A stretch of 64,000 nt of DNA, taken from the NCBI GenBank assembly GCA_021773835.1, contig JAJFJQ010000066.1, positions 1 through 64,000 on the forward strand. Direction: 5' to 3'. The notes under the pieces are model-generated. The model was not told where the DNA came from. It saw only the letters and a program-made list of their open reading frames with translations, and ran no database searches. The DNA is from Gammaproteobacteria bacterium. Its GTDB lineage: Bacteria; Pseudomonadota; Gammaproteobacteria; Ga0077536. Every line of letters begins with the position of its first letter. The first letter of the stretch is position 1. A program made the position numbers and the translations under genes. This document shows, one piece after another, positions 4,699-17,075 of this stretch.

Positions 4699-7530
4699 TT
4701 ACTTGTTACCTTTTAGCTTCGCTAGTAACTTCTCAGCTCGGCTTAAATCCGCAAACACATCACCGCTTCGAATAGCGGCCTCAAGTTCCTCCGCAGCGTC
4801 CGCGTTCTTGCCCAACTTCATTAAGGCCAATCCCGTGTGGAATCGGATCTCAGGGCCTGTGGATGAACGCGCAAAGGCTTCGCGTAACAACGGTAAGCCC
4901 TCATCGGGACTTCCATTCTCGGTCAATATCCAGCCGTAGGTATCGAGCACACTGGATGCCTCAGGGGCGCGCTCATAGGCCAACTTAGCAACCGCCAGCG
5001 CGCGTTTATCGCCAAGACGCTGATAGGTAACGGCAAGATTGTTCAACACGACGATGTCTTCGGTACCGTTCGCCCGCATATCTTCATAGACGACTCGCGC
5101 TTCTTCGTAGCGACCATCCGAGACCAAGCCCTGGCCAAGCGTATGGCGGGAACCGATATCATCGGGATGACGGCGAACCCATGCCTTTAGGAGTTGTAGT
5201 CCCTCGTCCGTGCGAGCAGCTGTACGGTAGGCTCGGTAGAGGGTTGTCACGGAGTCGCGTGTTGCTTCCATAGCATGCGCCTTAACAAATGCCGCGATGC
5301 CCTCGTCGAACCGACCCTCCGCCATATGTAAGTGGCCTTCGGCGGCCACAAGTGAACGTTGCTCACCGTGGACTTCGACGAGCGCAGCGAGCAATTCCTT
5401 GGCTTGTACGTAGTCTCCAAGGTCGGTCAATACGGTCGCCTTGAGAGTTCCCGATTCCAGATGGTTGGGGCTACCCTGTAGCGCCTTTGTTAGTGACCAA
5501 AGCGCTCCACTGAGATCAAGTAGGCGGGTCTGGAACTTTGCAACTTGCAGTAGCATTTCCGTTTCGAATTTAGCCTTCTCGCCGGCGTGTCGAAACGCCT
5601 TTTTAGCGTCAGCCCATTCTCCCAATTGAAGATGCATCTGACCAACAATGAGATCGACCTCAGGTTGCTTCGGAAATTTTTGCATCAATGTATACGCGGT
5701 TGATCGAATACTTTCGATTTCGGCACCCGCCCGCATTTGAATCTCTAGTTGTAAAACCGCCGCCTCAAATGAATCCGGTTCATTTTCAACGACGAGTGTT
5801 GCCAACTCTAATGCGTCTTCAAATTCACCTTGCTGAAGTTGCAAACGCGAGAGTTCAATTGCCGCCCTGGCATGGTTTGGGTGGGTTTGAAGGATCGCCC
5901 GAAAATACGATTCCGCTGACGCCAGCAGTTCTTGTTTCTGCGCAATGCGAGCGAGATTGAGTTGCGGCAATATCAGTTCCGGGTCTATATCCGCGGCCCT
6001 CTGGGTGTATTTTCGAGCTAGGTCTAGTTCATCGGCCGCCATATAGACAGCACCTGCAACCGTCAAAAAATGCGCGTTATCCCGCTGCGATTCCAATAAC
6101 GGCGCGATTTGGAGCTTTGCGTCATCGATGCGACCGATTCGCGTATAGACTTGCGCGAGTTGGATCTTCGCTTCGAGTAAGTCCGGGAATGTCTCGACTA
6201 GCCAGTTAAGATCTTTCACGGCCTGCTCTGCTTTACCCGCGTCAAGTCGGCTAAGCGCCAGACGGACCGCAAGGCCGACGGCGCTCGGCGCGAGTCGAAT
6301 CGCAGCTTCGTAGTATCGCTGTGCGGCCTTGAAATCCCCCTTTGCCCGATAGGCTTCGGCCATCATCGACAACGAAGTCGGATCATTCGGCGGTTCGGCG
6401 GTGGGCCTCGGGCGATACAATTTAATCACCGCATCCCACTCGCCCAAAGCAAGATAGGTTGACGCCAGGTAGCGCTTCGCACCGCTATGACTTGGGAACC
6501 TAGCTAGAAATTCGTTGAACCGTTCGACCGCTACACTGTGGTTTTCGTCGAAGTAGGCCACTATCCCTAGCATTAACGCGACGTGCGGTAGTTTCTCGCG
6601 GGCGTTATCTGAAATACCACGGATTTTGTCCGCACTTTCGCGCAGCAATTGCCGTGCCTCGTCGGCCTTACCTTGACGAAACTTCAACAGCGTTCTGAGA
6701 TAGATCGTCTCCAGCGTGCCAACGTCGAGGTCGGTGGCCTGTTGTAAGTCTTGCTCAGCCTCGGCAATGCGTCCGACGTCTATCCACATCGCGGCACGAG
6801 CCGTGAGTGCGCGTCCGGAAGTTGGTCGCAGCGACAGCGCACGTTCGAACGCGGGCAGCGCCTGGTCAAACTGTTTTGAATCGCGATGCAGCAGTGCCTT
6901 GTATATCCAAACGTCAAAATCGTCCGGCGCAAGCTGAGTGGCTTCGTTGACTAGTTTATCGACGGTAGAGCGTTTGCCTTTGGCGAGTGCAATATTGGCG
7001 CGGCCGATCAGTGCACGCGAGTCTGTGGGCATTAATACGCCTGCACTAAGGTAGGCTTCTTCTGCTAATTTAGTGTTGCCGAGCATCAGGTAAGCTTGCG
7101 CCTGAATGAGCAGTAACTCCCCGTCGACCTTCGGTTCATGGCCTTCAGCCACGATGCCGGTCAACACTTGTTCCGGCTTGAGCAGCTCCAAATATGACTG
7201 GGCGAGTGGTATGAGAATGAGATTTTCGTCCCCGCCCATACTCAGCGCCTTCTCCAGCTCGGTGACCGCGGCGTCGACCTGGTCTTCTATAAGTAGGGTT
7301 CGGCCAAGGAGGATCCGAGCCGGCAGGTTACCGGGGTCTTGCTGCAGTGCATTACGAAGCTGGATGACAGTCTCTGGATAACCGCCGCGGTTAAAGTGGC
7401 TCAGTGCGTCTTCATAGAATACCGTCGCCTTTCGCTGATCGACGGCTGCCGGTGCCGAGGCGCTCACTAGCAAGAGCGATACGGCGAGAATGCATAACAA
7501 ACACGTTGAAGTCGGTAGTGGCCTATCCAT
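4699..7530 (-). CDS. prsT: PrsT-like TPR protein of the PEP-CTERM/XrtA system
   Basis: 943-residue exported protein made almost wholly of tetratricopeptide repeats from about residue 35 to the end. The first repeats (ALSHFNRGGYPETVIQLRNA, LLGRTLL) closely resemble the PEP-CTERM system TPR lipoprotein family PrsT, ~900 residues long, found beside exosortase A loci. The N terminus has a Sec signal peptide ending near ASAPAA. Unlike typical PrsT, no lipobox cysteine follows the hydrophobic core, so it may be periplasmic rather than a lipoprotein. Its role in the family is unproven; a scaffold for exopolysaccharide or PEP-CTERM export is the usual suggestion. It is divergent from the PEP-CTERM gene and sits at the island border next to anmK. 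Confidence 0.82.
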   Translation of the reverse strand: MDRPLPTSTCLLCILAVSLLLVSASAPAAVDQRKATVFYEDALSHFNRGGYPETVIQLRNALQQDPGNLPARILLGRTLLIEDQVDAAVTELEKALSMGGDENLILIPLAQSYLELLKPEQVLTGIVAEGHEPKVDGELLLIQAQAYLMLGNTKLAEEAYLSAGVLMPTDSRALIGRANIALAKGKRSTVDKLVNEATQLAPDDFDVWIYKALLHRDSKQFDQALPAFERALSLRPTSGRALTARAAMWIDVGRIAEAEQDLQQATDLDVGTLETIYLRTLLKFRQGKADEARQLLRESADKIRGISDNAREKLPHVALMLGIVAYFDENHSVAVERFNEFLARFPSHSGAKRYLASTYLALGEWDAVIKLYRPRPTAEPPNDPTSLSMMAEAYRAKGDFKAAQRYYEAAIRLAPSAVGLAVRLALSRLDAGKAEQAVKDLNWLVETFPDLLEAKIQLAQVYTRIGRIDDAKLQIAPLLESQRDNAHFLTVAGAVYMAADELDLARKYTQRAADIDPELILPQLNLARIAQKQELLASAESYFRAILQTHPNHARAAIELSRLQLQQGEFEDALELATLVVENEPDSFEAAVLQLEIQMRAGAEIESIRSTAYTLMQKFPKQPEVDLIVGQMHLQLGEWADAKKAFRHAGEKAKFETEMLLQVAKFQTRLLDLSGALWSLTKALQGSPNHLESGTLKATVLTDLGDYVQAKELLAALVEVHGEQRSLVAAEGHLHMAEGRFDEGIAAFVKAHAMEATRDSVTTLYRAYRTAARTDEGLQLLKAWVRRHPDDIGSRHTLGQGLVSDGRYEEARVVYEDMRANGTEDIVVLNNLAVTYQRLGDKRALAVAKLAYERAPEASSVLDTYGWILTENGSPDEGLPLLREAFARSSTGPEIRFHTGLALMKLGKNADAAEELEAAIRSGDVFADLSRAEKLLAKLKGNK

Positions 7531-7561
7531 AGGAATGTCCGGAAAATAAGTATCTACGGCG

Positions 7562-7567
7562 ATTATA
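7562..7567 (-). promoter_or_regulatory. possible -10 element for the PrsT-like gene
   Basis: A perfect TATAAT on the minus strand lies 31 bp upstream of the PrsT-like start codon. No good -35 element sits at 16-18 bp; a TTGACA occurs 31 bp upstream, which is too far. The call rests on the -10 alone. Confidence 0.3.
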
Positions 7568-7742
7568 GCTAAGCGAAATCGAACGATTCGTAATGTTCTG
7601 TCAAATCGGGCATCGAGGCGCGAACTTCAATCAATCAACGCTTCGCCCAGCAGACGGACTTTCTTCCTAGCTCGGTCGTTGCGGCGAGGCCTGCTGTAAA
7701 AATTATTGACAGCGACCATACTCAAATAACCGCATGATTTAA

Positions 7743-7765
7743 TTGATTTTTATGCAAGAAATCAA
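7743..7765. repeat. inverted repeat TTGATTT-N9-AAATCAA
   Basis: A 7-bp perfect dyad with a 9-bp spacer in the 430-bp divergent region between the PrsT-like and PEP-CTERM genes. It may be an operator for either gene; no known factor is recognised. The rest of 7531-7821 holds no gene that can be supported. Confidence 0.3.
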
Positions 7766-7780
7766 CATAAGCCTAGATGT

Positions 7781-7791
7781 TTGTGCCAACT
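7781..7791 (-). promoter_or_regulatory. inverted copy of the sigma-54 -24 box without a -12 box
   Basis: On the minus strand this reads AGTTGGCACAA, identical over 11 bp to the -24 region of the sigma-54 promoter at 7893-7903 on the plus strand. It faces the PrsT-like gene. The -12 position reads TCTAG rather than TTGCT, so it is not a complete sigma-54 promoter as it stands. It could be a decayed promoter or a chance copy. Confidence 0.3.
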
Positions 7792-7821
7792 GCGCACTGA
7801 AATTCTGTCAATATCCTTTAC

Positions 7822-7845
7822 AAATGTCGCCGTCGAAAGACATTT
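7822..7845. promoter_or_regulatory. candidate enhancer-binding-protein site (AAATGTC-N10-GACATTT)
   Basis: A perfect 7-bp inverted repeat is centred about 88 bp upstream of the start expected from the sigma-54 promoter at 7895-7911. That is the usual distance for an activator of sigma-54 polymerase. In PEP-CTERM systems the activator is the response regulator PrsR; its binding here is inferred from position only. Confidence 0.45.
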
Positions 7846-7863
7846 TTCGCATCGCTTAATATA

Positions 7864-7876
7864 TAAATGGTTGATT
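7864..7876 (-). promoter_or_regulatory. IHF-like site
   Basis: The plus strand matches YAANNNNTTGATW, the reverse complement of the IHF consensus WATCAANNNNTTR, at every defined base. It lies between the dyad at 7822-7845 and the sigma-54 promoter, in AT-rich DNA, where IHF bends DNA at many sigma-54 promoters. Confidence 0.45.
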
Positions 7877-7894
7877 TATATAAGTTAAATATAG

Positions 7895-7911
7895 TTGGCA
7901 CAACGATTGCT
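7895..7911 (+). promoter_or_regulatory. sigma-54 promoter of the PEP-CTERM gene
   Basis: TTGGCACAACGATTGCT carries the -24 TTGGCAC and -12 TTGCT elements with the invariant GG and GC doublets at the correct 10-bp separation. It is a near-perfect sigma-54 promoter, placing transcription start near 7922, about 40 bp before the ATG at 7961. PEP-CTERM genes are known to be controlled by RpoN with PrsK/PrsR in several bacteria. Confidence 0.85.
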
Positions 7912-7960
7912 TCCAATACACGCAAACGACCCAATTCAGGCAAAAAAACTGAGAAAAACC

Positions 7961-8782
7961 ATGGATAAAATCAAAGCAATTAAAGCCGGGTTCGCAGCCC
8001 TAGCGATGGTCTCCGCGAGCGCGAGCGCCGAGGTGATTTATTTTAACGACTTCGATGGTGGCACGATGGATGGCGTGGGAACGGGAAATGAACTCGCCTC
8101 CTTCGTCGGTTCGAACAACAATTCGGATTGGAAAATCCATAGCGCTGCTCAAGCCAACAGCAACATTTCAAGTGGCATGAGTGGCAATCGAGTTGGCCAC
8201 GCAGGAAGCAGTTTTTACAACGACTTGGAGCAGTCGGTCTATACCTTCCGCATTGACGCGACCGGGTTCGAACTCACAAAACTGTCTTTCAATTTCGATT
8301 CCGAGCTACGCGACAGCGGCACCCTAGACATCGACGGCGCGAGCCTCGTCGCGTATACGGGAGCCTTCGACTCCGACGTCACCGGCGACAACAGCTACAC
8401 CTTGCTAAACACCAACAACGGTGAGTTTGTCTACGAGAATCTCGGCGAAGGGCGGTTAGACAATGCGCAGTTCGGTGGTGGCTTGGACCGTGGCTTCAAC
8501 AACATCAACAACGAACAAGGTACCGCGATGTTTGACCTCACGGGTCTCGGATTCGACGATCAGATCGTGAACTTCCGTTTGGCATTCGGCTCGGGCAACA
8601 CTAGTAATTCCGATGGCATCGCCTTCGACAAATTCAAATTAGAAGGCAGCGACTGCACCGGCTCCGGCGGCAGCTGTGAACCACCCGGCGGCGGTGGTAT
8701 CCCGGAACCGGGTTCGCTCACGCTTGCGATGTTAGGTTTGGTCGGACTCTACGGCGCTCGTAAAAAGCGCGCAAACGTTTAA
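7961..8782 (+). CDS. PEP-CTERM sorting domain-containing protein
   Basis: 273-residue exported protein. It has a Sec signal peptide (residues 1-24, ending ASASA), an Asn/Asp/Gly-rich beta-type body with no recognised enzyme domain, a Gly/Pro linker with the only two cysteines (CTGSGGSC), and a C-terminal PEP-CTERM signal. That signal has the motif IPEPGSL, a transmembrane stretch and an ARKKR basic tail. The family is processed at this signal by exosortase and associates with exopolysaccharide at the surface. The ATG at 7961 is chosen because an in-frame TTG at 7895 lies inside the sigma-54 promoter. A terminator follows 19 bp after the stop, so it is monocistronic. Body function is unknown. 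Confidence 0.9.
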   Translation: MDKIKAIKAGFAALAMVSASASAEVIYFNDFDGGTMDGVGTGNELASFVGSNNNSDWKIHSAAQANSNISSGMSGNRVGHAGSSFYNDLEQSVYTFRIDATGFELTKLSFNFDSELRDSGTLDIDGASLVAYTGAFDSDVTGDNSYTLLNTNNGEFVYENLGEGRLDNAQFGGGLDRGFNNINNEQGTAMFDLTGLGFDDQIVNFRLAFGSGNTSNSDGIAFDKFKLEGSDCTGSGGSCEPPGGGGIPEPGSLTLAMLGLVGLYGARKKRANV

Positions 8783-8845: not shown

Positions 8846-9787
8846 CTAGGGTGCCTTCCCCGGCCGCGCTTGCGTTGCTGTGAACCAAACGCCGCCTACT
8901 ATCCCCGCCCAAACAAATATCGCATAAGTGCCGATTGACATGATCATGGCAGCCTCTTGTGAGATCCCAATGGTCGCGAAAAGAAAAATGAAACTTGCCT
9001 CACGCACGCCCAGCCCGCCGACACTGATTGGTAAAAACGTCGCGAACCAGACCAACGGCACCAACGCAAAAACAGCGAGCCAGTGCACCGGTAATGAAAA
9101 CGCCAGCACCACCACATAAGTGATCCCAACGGTGATTATTTGATAGAGCACCGAGGCGACAAAAACCACCAAGATGCGCTTCGGGTCGCGCAACACAAGG
9201 CCGAGTGTCGCTACCGCGTCATTGACCCAGCGAATATTTATCGGCCGCGGTCGCCAATAGCGATACGCCAGAGCTACTGCCAGCAACGATAGGACGGTGA
9301 GCACGACGGCTAGTGTTACAAACAACTCGATAGTCCGCGGCAGTTCGAACCAACATTGGGCGAGGACGGACAACAATACCAAGCTGCATACGCCCATAAC
9401 CCGCTCGATTACAACGAGTGAGAATGCGGTGCTAGGAGAAACCGCTGCTTTCGCTAACCATATGACCCGCAGCGCATCGCCGCCGATGGAGCTCGGCAAA
9501 AACAGGTTGAAATAACCAGCAGCGAAATACTGATAGACGTGCGACGTCAGCTTCAGCCGGGCAAAGGGGTCGAACAGCAATTTGAAGCGGTACGCCCCGA
9601 GGACCGTCTCGAACAAAACAAGGGCTGCGCCTGCGATCAAATAAGGCACATTAGCGCCCACCAAAAGACGCGCAAGTTCCTTAAATTCTATTCCTCTTAA
9701 ACAGAAAGCGAACAGGCCAATACTGGTCACAATTTTTGCGATGGTAACCAACCGGTTCCGCGCAATTGATGGCTTACCTAGACGCAA
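8846..9787 (-). CDS. lysylphosphatidylglycerol synthase TM region-like (UPF0104) membrane protein
   Basis: 313-residue inner-membrane protein with about seven to eight transmembrane segments. It matches the LPG_synthase_TM / flippase-like domain: the conserved NLFLPSSIGGDALRV segment (about 94-108) and a C-terminal PISVGGLGVREASF segment are family hallmarks. It lacks the cytoplasmic aminoacyltransferase domain of MprF, so it is a stand-alone membrane domain. Such proteins often sit beside polyprenyl-phosphate glycosyltransferases and may move or use lipid-linked sugars; that role is inferred here from the GT2 and GT-C neighbours. It is convergent with the PEP-CTERM gene and divergent from the deacetylase-GT2 fusion, with a 304-bp gap (9788-10091) where no promoter could be supported. 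Confidence 0.85.
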   Translation of the reverse strand: MRLGKPSIARNRLVTIAKIVTSIGLFAFCLRGIEFKELARLLVGANVPYLIAGAALVLFETVLGAYRFKLLFDPFARLKLTSHVYQYFAAGYFNLFLPSSIGGDALRVIWLAKAAVSPSTAFSLVVIERVMGVCSLVLLSVLAQCWFELPRTIELFVTLAVVLTVLSLLAVALAYRYWRPRPINIRWVNDAVATLGLVLRDPKRILVVFVASVLYQIITVGITYVVVLAFSLPVHWLAVFALVPLVWFATFLPISVGGLGVREASFIFLFATIGISQEAAMIMSIGTYAIFVWAGIVGGVWFTATQARPGKAP

Positions 9788-10091: not shown

Positions 10092-11780
10092 ATGATCGAG
10101 GCGACTGCAACTGGCGCGCGAAAGCACATCGTAACGATCAATATCGAAGATTATTTTCAAGTCGGTACATTTAGTCAGCTTATACCGTTTAGCCACTGGG
10201 AACGCTTCGATGCACGCATAAAACGCAATACCGAGGCAGCTCTCGATTTGCTCGATCGGTCTGCGACGATAGCGACGTTTTTTGCCAGCGGTTGGATTGG
10301 GGAAAACTATCCTGAGATATTGCGCAGTGTTGTTGATGCAGGGCACGAAGTTGCCTGCCAAGGATTTTACCAACAATCGATCCGCGATATTTCACCACCT
10401 GCATTTCGAGAAGATCTACGTCGCTCACGCAGTGCCATTGAGAACGCGACTGGTCATGCCGTACAAGGCTTTCGCGTTGGCCGCGGCCGCATTAGCGCAG
10501 ACGACGTCTGGGCGCTCGACATTTTGGCCGAAGAAAACTTCAGTTACGATTCGAGCATCTGTCCAATAGGCCGTCAGTTCGCAAACCAGAAAGAACGTTT
10601 CATACTGCACCAATATACGTCGCGCAGCGGCGACTTATGGGAAGTTCCCGCTTCAGCGACTAGGCTATTTGGTTGGGCGATCCCTTTTTCCGGCGGGAAT
10701 TATATCCGGCAGATGCCGGCCTGGCTGACCCGTGAAGCGGTCGCGCGCTGGGTCGAGCGGCGCCATGCACCATTGGTCATGTACTTCCATATTTGGGAAC
10801 TCGATACGGACCAGCCTGTAATCAATGCAGCAACTTGGCTACAACGGCTGCGCCATTATCGAAATCTCGCCGGCATGCCCGAACGCATCCGCTATTTCTT
10901 AGACAGCTACGCGTTCACTTCGATCAATAGTTATTTGGAGCTTGGAGATCTCCAAATTGAGCCCGAGACCAGGACAGCCCTTCAGCCACCCGTCGTGATC
11001 GAACGCGACGGCGAGGCTGAAGGGGTAGGCGGTGAACTAACCGAGCTGAGCATCGTGATCCCTTGCTACAACGAAGAAGCCTCGCTTTCCTACCTAAATA
11101 AAACCTTGGCCAATTTTTCCACTGCCAGCCGCGGGTCTTTGCTACCGAACTTTATCTTTGTTGATGATGGGAGCCACGATACGACCTGGGACAAACTCAA
11201 CGCATATTTCGCCGATCGCAGTGATTGTAAATTGGTGCGTCATGCGAAAAACGAAGGGATCGCGGCAGCGATTATTACTGGATTCAAAAACTCAACGAGT
11301 GACATCGTTGCTGTACTCGACGCGGACTGCACTTTTAATCCAATTCAGCTCATTGAGATGGTGCCAATGCTGAGTGATGAAGTCGCGGCCGTCGCGGCTT
11401 CGCCCCTGCATTCGCAAGGCAGTCTCGCGAATGTCCCCGGGTGGCGTTTACTACTGTCACGAGGCGCTGCGTTCCTCTACCGCAGCGTACTGCATCACAA
11501 ATTCACAAGTTATACGAGTTGCTTTCGCGTCTACCGCCGTTCGGCAGTGGCCGATATTTCCGTTTCTAATTACGGATTTTGCGGCGTCACGGAGATACTT
11601 GCGCGTCTTGATTTAGCCGGTTACCGCATAGTCGAATGTCCGGCCGAGCTTGAAACACGACTTCTCGGTCAATCAAAGATCAATTTATTTAAGACAATTG
11701 GCGGTCATCTACATTTGATCGCTCGATTAGCAGCGGCTCGCTGGTTGAAAATCCCGCTGCCGGATGGCACTAACAACTAG
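10092..11780 (+). CDS. degenerate NodB polysaccharide deacetylase fused to GT2 glycosyltransferase
   Basis: 562-residue two-domain protein. Residues ~10-290 match the XrtA/PEP-CTERM-locus polysaccharide deacetylase subfamily (IEDYFQV, YDSSI, PFSGGNY, YFHIWE). The motif-1 Asp is Asn17, and the H-x3-H metal site is Q90 and Q94, so deacetylase activity is probably lost. Residues ~318-555 are a family 2 glycosyltransferase resembling dolichyl-phosphate-mannose synthase (IVIPCYNEE, FVDDGS, and a DAD metal motif in VLDADCTF) without C-terminal membrane segments. It may make a polyprenyl-phosphate sugar. ATG 10092 is preferred over an upstream TTG at 10062. It starts a three-gene operon with gaps of 3 and 0 bp. 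Confidence 0.85.
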   Translation: MIEATATGARKHIVTINIEDYFQVGTFSQLIPFSHWERFDARIKRNTEAALDLLDRSATIATFFASGWIGENYPEILRSVVDAGHEVACQGFYQQSIRDISPPAFREDLRRSRSAIENATGHAVQGFRVGRGRISADDVWALDILAEENFSYDSSICPIGRQFANQKERFILHQYTSRSGDLWEVPASATRLFGWAIPFSGGNYIRQMPAWLTREAVARWVERRHAPLVMYFHIWELDTDQPVINAATWLQRLRHYRNLAGMPERIRYFLDSYAFTSINSYLELGDLQIEPETRTALQPPVVIERDGEAEGVGGELTELSIVIPCYNEEASLSYLNKTLANFSTASRGSLLPNFIFVDDGSHDTTWDKLNAYFADRSDCKLVRHAKNEGIAAAIITGFKNSTSDIVAVLDADCTFNPIQLIEMVPMLSDEVAAVAASPLHSQGSLANVPGWRLLLSRGAAFLYRSVLHHKFTSYTSCFRVYRRSAVADISVSNYGFCGVTEILARLDLAGYRIVECPAELETRLLGQSKINLFKTIGGHLHLIARLAAARWLKIPLPDGTNN

Positions 11781-11783
11781 CGC

Positions 11784-13097
11784 ATGACACAACGAGACCT
11801 TAGGCAAAACTGGGCAGTGTTGGGTGGCGGCATGCTCGGTCTCACACTCGCCCTGCGACTCGCACAGCGCGGCAACAAGGTCACGGTGATCGAAGCCGCC
11901 CCGAGCCTAGGCGGGCTGACTGCGAGTTTTAGCTACGAGGACATAACATGGGACCGCTACTATCACGTCATTGAATCTTGCGATCGGCATCTCCTTGCTT
12001 TGTTGAGTGAGCTCGGCATGGAAAAAATGGTCTCATGGGCGGTAACGAAGACAAATTTCTATGACGGTAGTGGCTTGTACCCCTTAAATAATGTATTCGA
12101 TTATTTGCGACTGCCGGTCCTCGGTCCGATCGATAAAGCCCGGCTCGGGTTCAACATTCTTTATGGTTCCGTAATTAAAGACGGGATTGGTCTGGAGCAC
12201 CAAAAAGTTGCAGATTGGCTGATTCGATGGTCGGGACGCCGAACGTTTGAAAAGCTCTGGCGTCCATTGTTGCGCGCGAAGCTCGGAGACAATGTCGAAC
12301 TTGCGTCCGCGGCCTATATTTGGTCGATTATCCAGCGATTCTACGGCGCCAGACAAGGCCAAAGTAAAACCGAATTATTCGGCTATGTCCGAGGCGGCTA
12401 CACGCAAGTGATCGATGCGATGGTACGTGCTCTGAAGGGTCACGATGTAGGCTTCGATATCGGAAGCCCCGTTACTGCTATATCGGCGGGCACGCAAAAC
12501 GTCGTCGTTACAACCGACAAAGAGACACGGCACTACGATCAAGTTGCGGTAACCTTTGCCTCACCAATTGCCGCCCAAATCTGCGAGGGGTTGAGCCCGC
12601 AAGAAAAGGCCCGCCATGAGGGGATCCAATACCAAGGTGTTGTCTGCGCTTCGGTGCTACTTAAGCGACCACTTGGCGGTGCCTACCTAACCTACATCAC
12701 CGACGAGCGGATGCCATTTACGACGGTAATCGAAATGTCTTCTTTGGTTGATCGTGAATTGATCGGCGGCCACCATCTAGTTTATTTACCCAAATATGTG
12801 CCGAGTGCGGATCCGTTTTTGGATGCAAGCGATAGCGAGGTTGAACAACTCTTCATGCCTGCACTTTTGCGCATGTTCCCTGAGCTCAAAATGTCCGATA
12901 TCGACGCCCTGCATGTTGCACGGACACGTTTTGTCACTGCAATATCAACCTTGAACTATTCGGCGAAGTTACCGCCGATGCAAACGGCGGTTCCCGGACT
13001 CTATATCTGCAATTCCGCACACATTGTCAATGCGGCGCTGAGCGTTAACGAATCCATCGAACTCGCGAATCGATGCGCAAACGAGATCTGCAGCTAA
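11784..13097 (+). CDS. NAD(P)/FAD-dependent oxidoreductase (amine oxidase / UGM-like)
   Basis: 437-residue flavoprotein. The N-terminal Rossmann fingerprint (AVLGGGMLGLTLALRLAQRG, about 11-30) ends in VIEAAPSLGGLTAS, the GG doublet typical of the protoporphyrinogen oxidase / phytoene desaturase / UDP-galactopyranose mutase superfamily. The C-terminal FAD-binding segment GLYICNSAHIVNAALSVNESI is also present. The substrate is unknown. In glycan loci such proteins are often annotated as UDP-galactopyranose mutase-like. It lies 3 bp after the deacetylase-GT2 fusion and its stop abuts the ATG of the next deacetylase, so the three are surely co-transcribed. Confidence 0.85.
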   Translation: MTQRDLRQNWAVLGGGMLGLTLALRLAQRGNKVTVIEAAPSLGGLTASFSYEDITWDRYYHVIESCDRHLLALLSELGMEKMVSWAVTKTNFYDGSGLYPLNNVFDYLRLPVLGPIDKARLGFNILYGSVIKDGIGLEHQKVADWLIRWSGRRTFEKLWRPLLRAKLGDNVELASAAYIWSIIQRFYGARQGQSKTELFGYVRGGYTQVIDAMVRALKGHDVGFDIGSPVTAISAGTQNVVVTTDKETRHYDQVAVTFASPIAAQICEGLSPQEKARHEGIQYQGVVCASVLLKRPLGGAYLTYITDERMPFTTVIEMSSLVDRELIGGHHLVYLPKYVPSADPFLDASDSEVEQLFMPALLRMFPELKMSDIDALHVARTRFVTAISTLNYSAKLPPMQTAVPGLYICNSAHIVNAALSVNESIELANRCANEICS

Positions 13098-14078
13098 ATG
13101 GCCGCAGCTAACGAAAAGTCAGCAGCAACCTTATCGCTCGACCTCGATGATCTCTGGGCTTATCTCCGAACGCGCGGCGACAGGCGCTGGCAAGATTACC
13201 CATCGTACCTCGACCGGGCGGTTCCACGTATGCTCCGCCTCTTTAAATCCCTAAACTTAACAATCACCGTATTTGTTGTCGGTCGCGATGCAGAAATCCC
13301 ACGCAACCAGGATCTTCTCTCGACTATTTTAAACGCCGGACACGAATTGGCTAGCCACTCCTACGAGCATTCGGTGGATTTCCATCGCGCCACAGCGGAA
13401 ACCGTTAACGACGAACTTGAGCGAACCGAGAGCGCAATCCAAGTAATCGGCGGGCCTCGCCCAATCGGGTTCCGCGGTCCTTCATTTCGGTTGTCGGAAA
13501 CAATAATTGAAACATTAATTCAGCGGGAATATCGTTATGACGCGTCGACATTTCCCACCTTTGCGGGGCCGCTTGCGCGCGCCTACTATCGAGCGAAAAA
13601 CCCGACACTCGGCCCAGATAGGGAGCGTGTTAGGGATCTGTTCGGCTCGTTCCGTGACGGTAGGCGCCCTTTAAAACCGTACCGTTGGTCGGTTGGTGAT
13701 ACTTCGATTTGCGAATTACCGGTCACGACTTTCCCACTTTTCCGGATGCCGATCCACCTGACTTACATCAATTTCCTTGCTGACCATTCGCCGTTACTCG
13801 CGCGGGTGTATTTTAGGAGCGCGCTAGCATGCTGCCGGATGTTTGGAACTACGCCTTCGCTGTTGTTACATGCCGCAGATTTTATCGGATCAAACGATGA
13901 CGATTGCCCGCAGTTTCTACCAGGCATGAAACGGAGTAGTGAAGAGAAAATCGCCTTTTTGCATAACATATTGCTTTGTTACGCGGGAAACTTTGGGGTA
14001 ACGGCGCTGGGAAGTTTCGTCGAAAATGAGGTGAGCAATACGGAGCTAAAGGTACTTAGCGTGTCGAGTCTTCATTAA
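13098..14078 (+). CDS. polysaccharide deacetylase family protein (intact NodB motifs)
   Basis: 326-residue NodB-fold carbohydrate esterase. Motif 1 is LSLDLDD (D15, D17, D18), motif 2 is SHSYEH (H87 and H91), and motif 3 is FRGPSF (R126), so the metal site and catalytic Asp are in place. It probably removes N-acetyl or O-acetyl groups from a glycan. No signal peptide is evident, suggesting action on lipid-linked or precursor sugar on the cytoplasmic side. It contrasts with the degenerate deacetylase domain two genes upstream and may supply the activity lost there. The ATG directly follows the previous stop. It is convergent with the GT-C gene, with 10 bp between the genes. Confidence 0.87.
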   Translation: MAAANEKSAATLSLDLDDLWAYLRTRGDRRWQDYPSYLDRAVPRMLRLFKSLNLTITVFVVGRDAEIPRNQDLLSTILNAGHELASHSYEHSVDFHRATAETVNDELERTESAIQVIGGPRPIGFRGPSFRLSETIIETLIQREYRYDASTFPTFAGPLARAYYRAKNPTLGPDRERVRDLFGSFRDGRRPLKPYRWSVGDTSICELPVTTFPLFRMPIHLTYINFLADHSPLLARVYFRSALACCRMFGTTPSLLLHAADFIGSNDDDCPQFLPGMKRSSEEKIAFLHNILLCYAGNFGVTALGSFVENEVSNTELKVLSVSSLH

Positions 14079-14088
14079 CCAAATATCT

Positions 14089-15687
14089 TTACAGACCAGG
14101 TTTTGCTTTTCGAAACTTCGGACGCAAGAGAAACCACGATCCCTTATGATCGTCCACCAACCGAATATAGTACTCCTCGATAAACTCACTAACACCGCCG
14201 CCGCGTCGCTCTATCATCTTCCGATTCTTCTCGTCGATATAAATGTAGGGTGCACTAGCCGCACGGAGCTGCTCCGGGACTTGCTCCCATTGTGCCTGTA
14301 GAAAATAATTCCATGGCCACCCGATAATAGGCAACGCAGGTTGTCGCCCCGACAGATGGTAGTAAAGCGGATCGCCGAGCACGTAGATCGCACCGGGAAA
14401 GGCCATTTTGTCGCCCAAAAACCGCGTGCTCCGATGGATTTTGGCATAGTCGCTATTGATTCCCATCTGCAGATCTAGAAGATCGCCGCGTTGTTGAAGA
14501 TAAATGACCGCAAAAGGCGTGAGCTTTTGGCCCGCCGGCACCGCTACCGCTCCGGTCACCGGCACGACAAAGGCGAGCGCCAGTAGCATCGCTCTGCGTT
14601 GCAAGGTCGGTGATGAGTCCACTATGTAACGAGTGAGTTCTCCGATCCCGCGCACCGAAAGGATCCCAGCCGGTGGAAACAGGATAAGGAAATGATACTG
14701 CCACCAAGAAAATCGTTGCACGAGGATCAATCCAAGGCCAACGATCAACCAAGCAAGCAACATGGTCGTCAATGGATCACGGTCCGATCGCCACCAGTGA
14801 AAAATGGCGATAATTATGAATCCACTCCAGGCCAAATAGAACGTTAGAAAAAAGCGAGACGATTCCAGTAGTCTGATATACGGCGCATTTGGGGAAGTAG
14901 TTAAAGCCTGTGGCGGATAAACGAAGGCAGTCCAAATCAGCTCGTCGAGCGCGCCATCGATCCAGAACTTACCAACCACGATCCCCAATACGACCGCGAC
15001 ACCAACGCTCACCGGTATCCAAATGTTCTTTATGATTGAGCGAATAGGTAGGCTTTGCGTCGAGTAGACGTGGAACGATGTCACTAACCAAAAAACGACG
15101 AATAGTGGAGCAAACAGTAATTTAAAGACCACCGCGATACCCGCGCAAACTCCCGACGCGAACGCTAACCAGCGTTGTGCCTTTGTGGACGAAGGCGGCC
15201 GTGTCACGAGCCAGGCGCTTAGAAAAATTGGCAGACCGACAAGGATCTCCAATTGGGTCAATAGAAACGGCTCGGAACTAACATAGTAAACAGAAATCAC
15301 CGCAATGGGCGCGACCGCGGATAGCCATGGAAAGCAGTAATACCTTCGTAGCGTCACCATTAGAACCAGAGCAAACGTGCTCATCCAAATGAGCTCTAGT
15401 GTGTGTACGCCAACCTCTGTATACCCGAAGAGTTCGCCAGCGGTGAAGTAGAACCAAAACAGGCCGGGCATCTTGTTGTCCCAAAAATCCACATACAACA
15501 CGCCCCCTGCGGCAATCGCTTTAGCGCCGCTAAGTGCAACAACCTGATCGGCAACAAAGGGATAAAAGAGATTTGGTATCGCGGTTATCAGGAAGACAAC
15601 CGTTGAGGCGATGTACCACACCCATCCCAGCCGATTTTTGGGCTCGTTCCGGACGGGGCTGCTGGGCGTCTCATGCGCGTCGGTCAT
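14089..15687 (-). CDS. GT-C fold glycosyltransferase, GT39/ArnT-like
   Basis: Integral membrane protein of 532 residues with about ten transmembrane segments and a C-terminal soluble region. The first periplasmic loop carries VADQVVALSGAKAIAAGG and YVDFWDNKMPGLFWFY, typical of the PMT/ArnT-like (PMT_2, GT39/GT83) superfamily. These enzymes use polyprenyl-phosphate sugars as donors on the periplasmic face. The GT2 domain in the facing operon could make that donor. The ATG at 15687 has GGAT upstream; a GTG at 15717 would add 10 residues. It runs in the same direction as the SGNH gene upstream, with a 116-bp gap. Acceptor unknown: exopolysaccharide, lipid or PEP-CTERM protein are possible. Confidence 0.8.
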   Translation of the reverse strand: MTDAHETPSSPVRNEPKNRLGWVWYIASTVVFLITAIPNLFYPFVADQVVALSGAKAIAAGGVLYVDFWDNKMPGLFWFYFTAGELFGYTEVGVHTLELIWMSTFALVLMVTLRRYYCFPWLSAVAPIAVISVYYVSSEPFLLTQLEILVGLPIFLSAWLVTRPPSSTKAQRWLAFASGVCAGIAVVFKLLFAPLFVVFWLVTSFHVYSTQSLPIRSIIKNIWIPVSVGVAVVLGIVVGKFWIDGALDELIWTAFVYPPQALTTSPNAPYIRLLESSRFFLTFYLAWSGFIIIAIFHWWRSDRDPLTTMLLAWLIVGLGLILVQRFSWWQYHFLILFPPAGILSVRGIGELTRYIVDSSPTLQRRAMLLALAFVVPVTGAVAVPAGQKLTPFAVIYLQQRGDLLDLQMGINSDYAKIHRSTRFLGDKMAFPGAIYVLGDPLYYHLSGRQPALPIIGWPWNYFLQAQWEQVPEQLRAASAPYIYIDEKNRKMIERRGGGVSEFIEEYYIRLVDDHKGSWFLLRPKFRKAKPGL

Positions 15688-15803
15688 TGCATTTATCCGA
15701 ATGTTCGTATCAATCACATGAAATATTCGACAGCGTCTGACAGAACGTTGCCAAACAGGTGTCGCAACAACGCTAGCTTATCTCGACCAACTTCAAAGCA
15801 CTA

Positions 15804-17075
15804 TTATTGCCTACCGGACGGACGATGGTCGGCACGTCGTGCATTCGCTAGTGACTCTTTTTCCTGGATCCACTCGACAACTGCATTTGCTGCAAGCTTG
15901 TTTCCACTGGCTGTCCAGTGCACATCGTAGTATGGATAAAGCTCCTCGCCCCGAGCTGCCGCTGTAATGAATGCCGGTCGCAGATCGACAAAATCGATGT
16001 TGTTGTCTTTTGCGAACTCGATTAAACGGTCGGTCGCGAAATTTTCCGCCTCCACTTCTGTGCGCAGGACATCGTTGGGCAGTTCATCTGCATATACTTG
16101 CAAATTACTTGGTGCGATCAATAACAAGAATTGCGTTTTATCTATCGATGACCGGCGTGCCGCAAGCGAAATCGCTCCAGTTGTCATCTTGAATCCGGAC
16201 GTTGCAACTTGACTGTCGATCGCCGCACCCTCACCGCGCCAAGCGAATAATTGTCGATTTTTAGTTGTTGTAAATGAATATGCATCCGTAGTGGAGATTT
16301 CGTCGTCCGGTGTCGTCTTCTGCAACTGTACTAAAGTATGTTTGATAAGGTTCGCAGAAATCGAGAACTGTTTAAGCCATTGGAGAAACCCGCGGTTGTG
16401 CATGGTTCCACGACGATCGGTTCCTGCGACCATGCACGGTAGCAAGCCTCCGGCAACATGTTGCACATCTTCACGCGGATCATTAACCCAGTATTGCCAA
16501 ATTACATAGCGCGGGTCGAGCTTACGTCCGTAATTTTCCAAGTAGCGAGAATGACTGGCTGAGCCAGTGCCTGGAACGGCCAAATTTGCGATCTTCAATC
16601 CAGTTCGTTCCGCCACATGTGTGACCCAGCAATCTTCCATTTCGACGTGGTGACAAAAAGCAAACGAATCGCCTACGACAACACCGTCCCAACGGTTGCT
16701 GTCGTTGTGCATCGTCCTAAAACCGACATGCTCAAACCCTAACGACGTCGTGCTGACGTGATAAATAGCCGGACCAAACTGGACTCGGTGACGCTTGAGA
16801 TTGGGCAGGTTGCGCGCAGCGAGATAGCTGTCGCCTTCGCAAATTTCCAGCCACGATGGTCCAAGGCTCGACCCGGCACTGCTCCATACGCGAACGTGGC
16901 GGATCATGTTTTGGACTGGAAAGGGCAAGTAACCGTATGCAAGCCGCAGACCGACTTCAACTAACAACAGGGCGATGAGCATTCCAAAAACGACCAGCGC
17001 GATTCGAGTTAAGAAATTGGATATCAAAGCCAAGTTGGATGCGCTACCGAGTTCGTCATTCGGGTTAAAGTGCAA
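15804..17075 (-). CDS. membrane-anchored SGNH/GDSL-type esterase
   Basis: 423-residue protein with one N-terminal transmembrane anchor (about 22-48) and a periplasmic SGNH domain. Block I is VVVGDSFAF (Ser137), an Asn-containing block is YWVNDPRED, and the C-terminal acid/base pair is in YDVHWT (D384, H386), so a complete catalytic set is visible. Such proteins in polysaccharide loci act as O-acetyl esterases or acetyltransferases; which one is unknown. The first possible start is a TTG at 17075 with no clear ribosome site, so the true start may lie a little downstream. The 282 bp upstream contain a 15-bp dyad at 17227-17241 but no gene. Confidence 0.78.
   Translation of the reverse strand: MHFNPNDELGSASNLALISNFLTRIALVVFGMLIALLLVEVGLRLAYGYLPFPVQNMIRHVRVWSSAGSSLGPSWLEICEGDSYLAARNLPNLKRHRVQFGPAIYHVSTTSLGFEHVGFRTMHNDSNRWDGVVVGDSFAFCHHVEMEDCWVTHVAERTGLKIANLAVPGTGSASHSRYLENYGRKLDPRYVIWQYWVNDPREDVQHVAGGLLPCMVAGTDRRGTMHNRGFLQWLKQFSISANLIKHTLVQLQKTTPDDEISTTDAYSFTTTKNRQLFAWRGEGAAIDSQVATSGFKMTTGAISLAARRSSIDKTQFLLLIAPSNLQVYADELPNDVLRTEVEAENFATDRLIEFAKDNNIDFVDLRPAFITAAARGEELYPYYDVHWTASGNKLAANAVVEWIQEKESLANARRADHRPSGRQ

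Follow-up and report, generated by a model that had tools for sequence, protein, structure and literature searches.

A deacetylase-like domain without its catalytic residues is fused to a lipid-type GT2 glycosyltransferase and accompanied by a flavoprotein and an intact deacetylase

The stretch of DNA analysed here (the window, 64,000 nucleotides of a gammaproteobacterial contig) contains a gene for a NodB/DUF3473 domain joined to a GT2 glycosyltransferase domain. The open reading frame, the domain order and the coordinates proposed in an earlier note on this DNA all proved correct, the protein giving Pfam matches to Polysacc_deac_1 (residues 39-137), DUF3473 (154-282) and Glycos_transf_2 (320-488). 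A hydropathy scan revealed zero transmembrane segments, and the AlphaFold model held the fold with confidence (pLDDT 86). The gene for a flavoprotein begins 3 nt past the stop codon of the fusion, and directly past the stop of the latter gene begins that of an intact deacetylase (DEAC2), which the note had rightly placed two genes downstream. DEAC2 itself was modelled poorly by AlphaFold (pLDDT 64.5), and this model was left out of the analysis.

These three genes (the trio) are followed, on the opposite strand, by the gene for a polytopic membrane protein that is 26-28% identical to proteins encoded within two Acidobacteriota copies of the operon. It has no Pfam match, and we infer that it is a putative GT-C glycosyltransferase. 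It adjoins a gene for an AlgX-like SGNH protein, possibly an acetyltransferase (window positions 15804-17075). On the other side of the fusion lies a divergent gene whose product, with a flippase-like domain, is an uncertain member of the system. The region 4699-8782, also near the trio, encodes PrsT (4699-7530, minus strand) and a PEP-CTERM protein (7895-8782, plus strand).

Table 1. Position of the fusion gene, its parts and its neighbours in the window.
Feature	Position	Strand	Basis
Pseudo-deacetylase (NodB/DUF3473)-GT2 fusion, 562 aa	10092..11780	+	ORF and domain searches
Degenerate NodB/DUF3473 domain, residues 12-285	10125..10946	+	Alignment and fold comparison
Codons of N17; E19; Q90; Q94; H233	10140-10142; 10146-10148; 10359-10361; 10371-10373; 10788-10790	+	
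Linker, residues 286-316, mostly low model confidence	10947..11039	+	AlphaFold model
GT2 domain, residues 317-550, DPMS/ArnC-like, intact DAD (D410, D412) and RxxGxSK (R523-K529)	11040..11741	+	
FAD-dependent amine-oxidase-fold oxidoreductase (NF005560/PRK07233), second trio member	11784..13097	+	
Intact CE4-type deacetylase (DEAC2), third trio member; D15/D17, H87/H91, R126-G-P and H258 conserved	13098..14078	+	
Polytopic membrane protein, 9 predicted hydrophobic segments, putative GT-C	14089..15717	-	
LPG_synthase_TM / flippase-like domain protein, divergent neighbour	8846..9787	-	

HpPgdA binds zinc through Asp14, His86 and His90 and holds the attacking water molecule with Asp12, Asp14 and His247 (PMC3084791). 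Motif alignment and fold similarity made N17 of the fusion equivalent to Asp12, E19 to Asp14, Q90 and Q94 to His86 and His90, and H233 to His247. An Asn therefore stands in the place of the water-holding Asp and a Gln in that of each metal-binding His. These three substitutions had been noticed before, and the alignment then suggested, run here with 27 canonical proteins of the TIGR03006 type, bore them out; it also showed an altered motif 3 (RVGR for RAPS), which was absent from the earlier list. Since the Asp and the Glu of the D-x-E motif are both invariant in canonical XrtA deacetylases and the next residue is variable, this motif matches Asp12-x-Asp14. As judged from the alignment, the lost Asp is thus the water-holding residue, whereas the acidic metal ligand, E19, remains. 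Of what makes a CE4/NodB domain active, namely a water-holding Asp and a His/His/acid metal triad, the window domain retains only E19, together with H233. The NodB fold itself was well recognized in the model, with Z-scores of 19.5-23.3 to 3rxz, 3qbu, 3cl6 and 8t0j (3RXZ, 23.3; HpPgdA, 21.6; PuuE, 19.8; ArnD, 19.5).

We compared 41 fusions from four phyla with the 27 ordinary relatives. The motif-1 Asp and the first metal His were each found in 0/41 fusions versus 27/27 canonical proteins, a difference in sequence that is no chance pattern. The second metal His (position 94) is kept in 36 of the fusions, the window protein being among those without it, while E19 is present in all 41 and H233 in 37/41. 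Residues specific to the clade have appeared as well: N203 (40/41), Q207, D153 and R257 (41/41 each), and, at position 90, an Arg or Lys (35/41, the window protein with its Q90 not being one of these). In a maximum-likelihood tree, the degenerate fusions occupied one side of a 100/100 branch with a length of 0.83 (the tip F_L153 is an intact neighbouring gene and not the fusion of that genome, which is split by a stop). The NodB domain showed a dN/dS of 0.09-0.15 in four close pairs, similar to the GT2 domain and indicative of strong purifying selection. These low values and the loss in 41/41 ruled out the recent decay of a single gene. The clade-wide loss, the newly fixed residues and the low dN/dS suggested that the domain is kept for something other than metal-dependent deacetylation, and the new residues and the purifying selection argue for a pseudoenzyme that has been re-specialized rather than one that is decaying. 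On sequence and model, the domain qualifies as a CE4 pseudoenzyme, with a conserved fold, lost catalytic residues and continued selection; the loss of the catalytic residues dates from long ago, and new conserved ones have been gained.

The earlier note had called for a search for other NodB-GT2 fusions and had allowed that this one might be a lone exception among intact homologues. This was ruled out, as every clade fusion found lacks the motif-1 Asp and the first His, the second His being gone in only 5/41. The sole intact NodB-GT2 fusion that we found is an independent one (L193:7739-9871, on contig C253 of genome G260). In 710 aa, it links an intact TIGR03006-type deacetylase to a different, ArnC/GtrB-like GT2 whose C terminus has hydrophobic segments; neither the flavoprotein nor DEAC2 is encoded nearby. 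In yet another locus (L191:6909-11829, G318:C191), a split fusion gene lies next to two others, one for an intact deacetylase of the XrtA type and one for another degenerate, DUF3473-like protein with the motifs INVRDYF and SGTIGRP.

The family nearest to the N-terminal domain, DUF3473 part included, is that of the XrtA-system deacetylases (TIGR03006), and the domain had been described earlier as being of the XrtA-locus type. The relationship held, but membership did not: the N-terminal part scored 254 bits against TIGR03006, below the curated cut-off of 276.2, and, unlike the members, it belongs to a separate 100/100 clade, has lost the catalytic residues, carries a GT2 domain and is encoded away from the exosortase locus. 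The true TIGR03006 deacetylase of this genome (388 bits) is encoded on another contig, C26, no more than about 1.2 kb from an exosortase gene; exosortases were found on contigs C25 and C26 and the fusion is on C63, thus outside any exosortase/EPS locus.

The assignment of the C-terminal half to the lipid-type GT2s found support both in sequence and in fold. Its best solved relatives were dolichol-phosphate-mannose synthase (DPMS; E 4e-21 by sequence, Z 26.8 with the AlphaFold model) and ArnC (Z 23.8). The window protein has the fold, the DxD motif and the RxxGxSK motif of polyprenyl-phosphate GT2s of the DPMS/ArnC type, and the first six fusions to be aligned showed no variation in the Asp-rich and RxxGxSK motifs. 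From these features, and from the model, the fusion is probably an enzyme that attaches a sugar to a membrane lipid.

A scan of the collection had returned seven homologous fusions with 37-46% identity. Profile searches gave matches, nearly all of them clade members, in 21/347 genomes of Acidobacteriota, 10/343 of Planctomycetota and 12/284 of Myxococcota. In the window's own class, the window itself was the only match among 369 genomes, which suggests, from gene distribution, that its fusion was probably acquired by horizontal transfer. No description of such a fusion was found in the open-access literature on DUF3473 and on pseudo-deacetylase/GT fusions.

The flavoprotein and the deacetylase each adjoin 30 of 38 fusions. 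Genome-wide, the live deacetylase was found in 40/40 fusion genomes versus 0/40 controls at E < 1e-30 (with one weaker match, 36% identical, at 2e-29), and the flavoprotein in 40/40 versus 1/40 (the control match being 31% identical); the controls were the first-listed fusion-less genomes of the same phyla, unmatched for relatedness. The partner deacetylase has both His and motif 3 in 30/30 aligned copies and the motif-1 Asp residues in all 29 readable ones. The partners are encoded apart from the fusion in several genomes; the clearest example is G123, whose deacetylase and fusion genes share a contig but are separated by about 1.4 Mb. This indicates co-inheritance and more than operon linkage. 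The strict co-occurrence is a sign of a sugar-processing trio, hitherto undescribed, that spans four bacterial phyla.

The neighbouring genes gave clues as to the sugar. A WecB-type UDP-GlcNAc 2-epimerase adjoins 24/38 fusions, and a set comprising a DegT aminotransferase, a Gfo/Idh oxidoreductase (best named match, UDP-GlcNAc 3-dehydrogenase, under its cut-off) and a hexapeptide acetyltransferase adjoins 18/38. The WecB, DegT, Gfo/Idh and hexapeptide genes resemble WbpI, WbpE, WbpB and WbpD, respectively. On a Magnetococcales contig (L043:193-2103), a WecB-type epimerase is fused directly to the same type of GT2. These neighbours and this fusion suggested a 2,3-diacetamido sugar, perhaps manno-configured, as the probable substrate in genomes where Wbp-like genes adjoin. 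In the window's genome, a search conducted without a positive control found no match for the WbpE-like DegT aminotransferase, and the only WecB was a distant one (35%); its sugar must therefore differ from the diacetamido sugar or be made by other enzymes.

These findings led us to a reading that we hold to be reasonably likely, namely that the fusion is a polyprenyl-phosphate sugar synthase with a catalytically intact GT2 domain and an N-terminal pseudo-deacetylase, served by the flavoprotein and the live deacetylase in a route resembling that of ArnC and ArnD. The GT2 domain would transfer an N-acetylated sugar from UDP to polyprenyl phosphate at the cytoplasmic face; in many relatives, WbpB/E/D- and WecB-like enzymes probably supply a 2,3-diacetamido sugar for this step. 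The flavoprotein would then modify the sugar, and the live deacetylase would subsequently remove an N-acetyl group, after which the product would be flipped and the sugar passed by a GT-C enzyme to an acceptor in the envelope; putative GT-C genes do come after the trio in several loci. The dead domain would not deacetylate. Its most likely role is to bind the acetylated sugar-lipid or to dock the live deacetylase, thereby passing on the product of the GT2. The new conserved residues and the purifying selection are consistent with a binding role, such as that of a glycan-binding module presenting substrate to the GT2 domain, which the note had suggested, and equally so with docking. Against this reading count the absence from the window protein of the R/K90 of most clade members and of the second His, and, in its genome, the missing DegT match and the distant WecB.

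We considered the possibility that the NodB domain is a mere structural or membrane-docking support, with no ligand pocket, for a GT2 that has no transmembrane helices of its own. Many polyprenyl-phosphate GT2s do have such segments, and the NodB fold is confidently retained in the model. Yet a scaffold need not conserve N203, Q207 and R/K90 at motif positions, and soluble relatives of this GT2, e.g. L042, stand alone, so that we regard this explanation as unlikely. The domain could also still be an enzyme in which E19, H233 and the new residues catalyse another reaction or one that needs no metal. The retention of E19, H233 and, in most fusions, H94, the strong selection and the precedent of PuuE, which has the same fold and is active without metal (PMC3084791), would fit with this. 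However, the water-holding Asp and the first metal His are absent from all fusions, motif 3 is lost, metal binding is unlikely beside the R/K that 35/41 have at the metal site, and an intact deacetylase is always alongside; a residual activity consequently appears quite improbable to us. Similarly small is the chance that the product of the trio is an exopolysaccharide or O-antigen sugar of the ordinary kind, the fusion being one EPS glycosyltransferase among many. Other bacteria do use WbpB/E/D/I-like genes to make UDP-diacetamido sugars for their O-antigen (PMC7468200), but the GT2 domain is nearest to polyprenyl-phosphate synthases and not to polymer-forming or chain-extending GT2s, GT-C genes come after the fusion, and the core trio is also present without Wbp-like genes in some loci.

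If the fusion is, as we favour, a polyprenyl-phosphate sugar synthase with a pseudo-deacetylase, its closest parallel is the ArnC/ArnD/ArnT system of Salmonella (Und-P-Ara4N), in which a DPMS-like GT2 is followed by a CE4-fold deformylase acting on the polyprenyl-phosphate amino sugar, which is then used by a GT-C enzyme. The GT2 domain resembles ArnC and the NodB domain ArnD, but in the present system the GT2 carries a dead CE4 domain, the live CE4 enzyme is a second, separate protein, a flavoprotein is added and the sugar is probably of the HexNAc type rather than Ara4N. The Bacillus anthracis CE4 pseudoenzymes BA3943 (6hm9/7bkf) and BA0150 (4M1B) have likewise kept the NodB fold and lost catalytic motif residues; they are, however, separate proteins with no GT2 attached and no known partner trio. 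Streptomyces MatB combines a GT2 and a CE4 domain in a single protein, but its GT2 is a PgaC-like polymer synthase, connected through a transmembrane helix to an extracellular CE4 domain that is predicted to be active (PMC5972031). In the Wbp/Vim linking-sugar pathway of P. gingivalis, WbpB/D/E(/I)-like enzymes, similar to those adjoining many fusions, work with the CE4 deacetylase VimE (PMC7468200); neither a GT2 fusion nor a flavoprotein is described there, and the Wbp-like aminotransferase was the one not found in the window's genome. The fusions offer a clean case in which catalysis was lost once, across phyla, and the domain was kept under selection, with new residues at motif positions and a live deacetylase always as partner. 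In Acidobacteriota, Myxococcota and Planctomycetota, and through one probably acquired copy also in the window's class, the three genes would make up a module for a lipid-linked amino sugar, and this may be a case of a pseudo-deacetylase that steers the processing of a glycan.

The sugar by which T9SS cargo is anchored is a product of the Wbp/Vim pathway, and the authors of that work brought up a link with PEP-CTERM systems (PMC7468200). Exosortase genes were found in 24/40 fusion genomes versus 7/40 controls (E < 1e-20; p = 0.0002, uncorrected for genome relatedness). A tight dependence on exosortase was unsupported, 16/40 fusion genomes showing none, and on both counts the link is weak. It is therefore speculation, and improbable, that the trio represents an undescribed envelope-sugar pathway with a pseudo-deacetylase-gated polyprenyl-phosphate GT2, a flavoprotein and a live deacetylase, the amino sugar of which could, in exosortase-bearing hosts, be the molecule joined to PEP-CTERM or related surface proteins.

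In one Acidobacteriota locus, the trio is directly followed by a gene for a decaprenyl-phosphate phosphoribosyltransferase (UbiA; L180:3416-4351, minus strand), and ORFs of like length (309-312 aa) follow the trio in L181, L182, L186 and L195.
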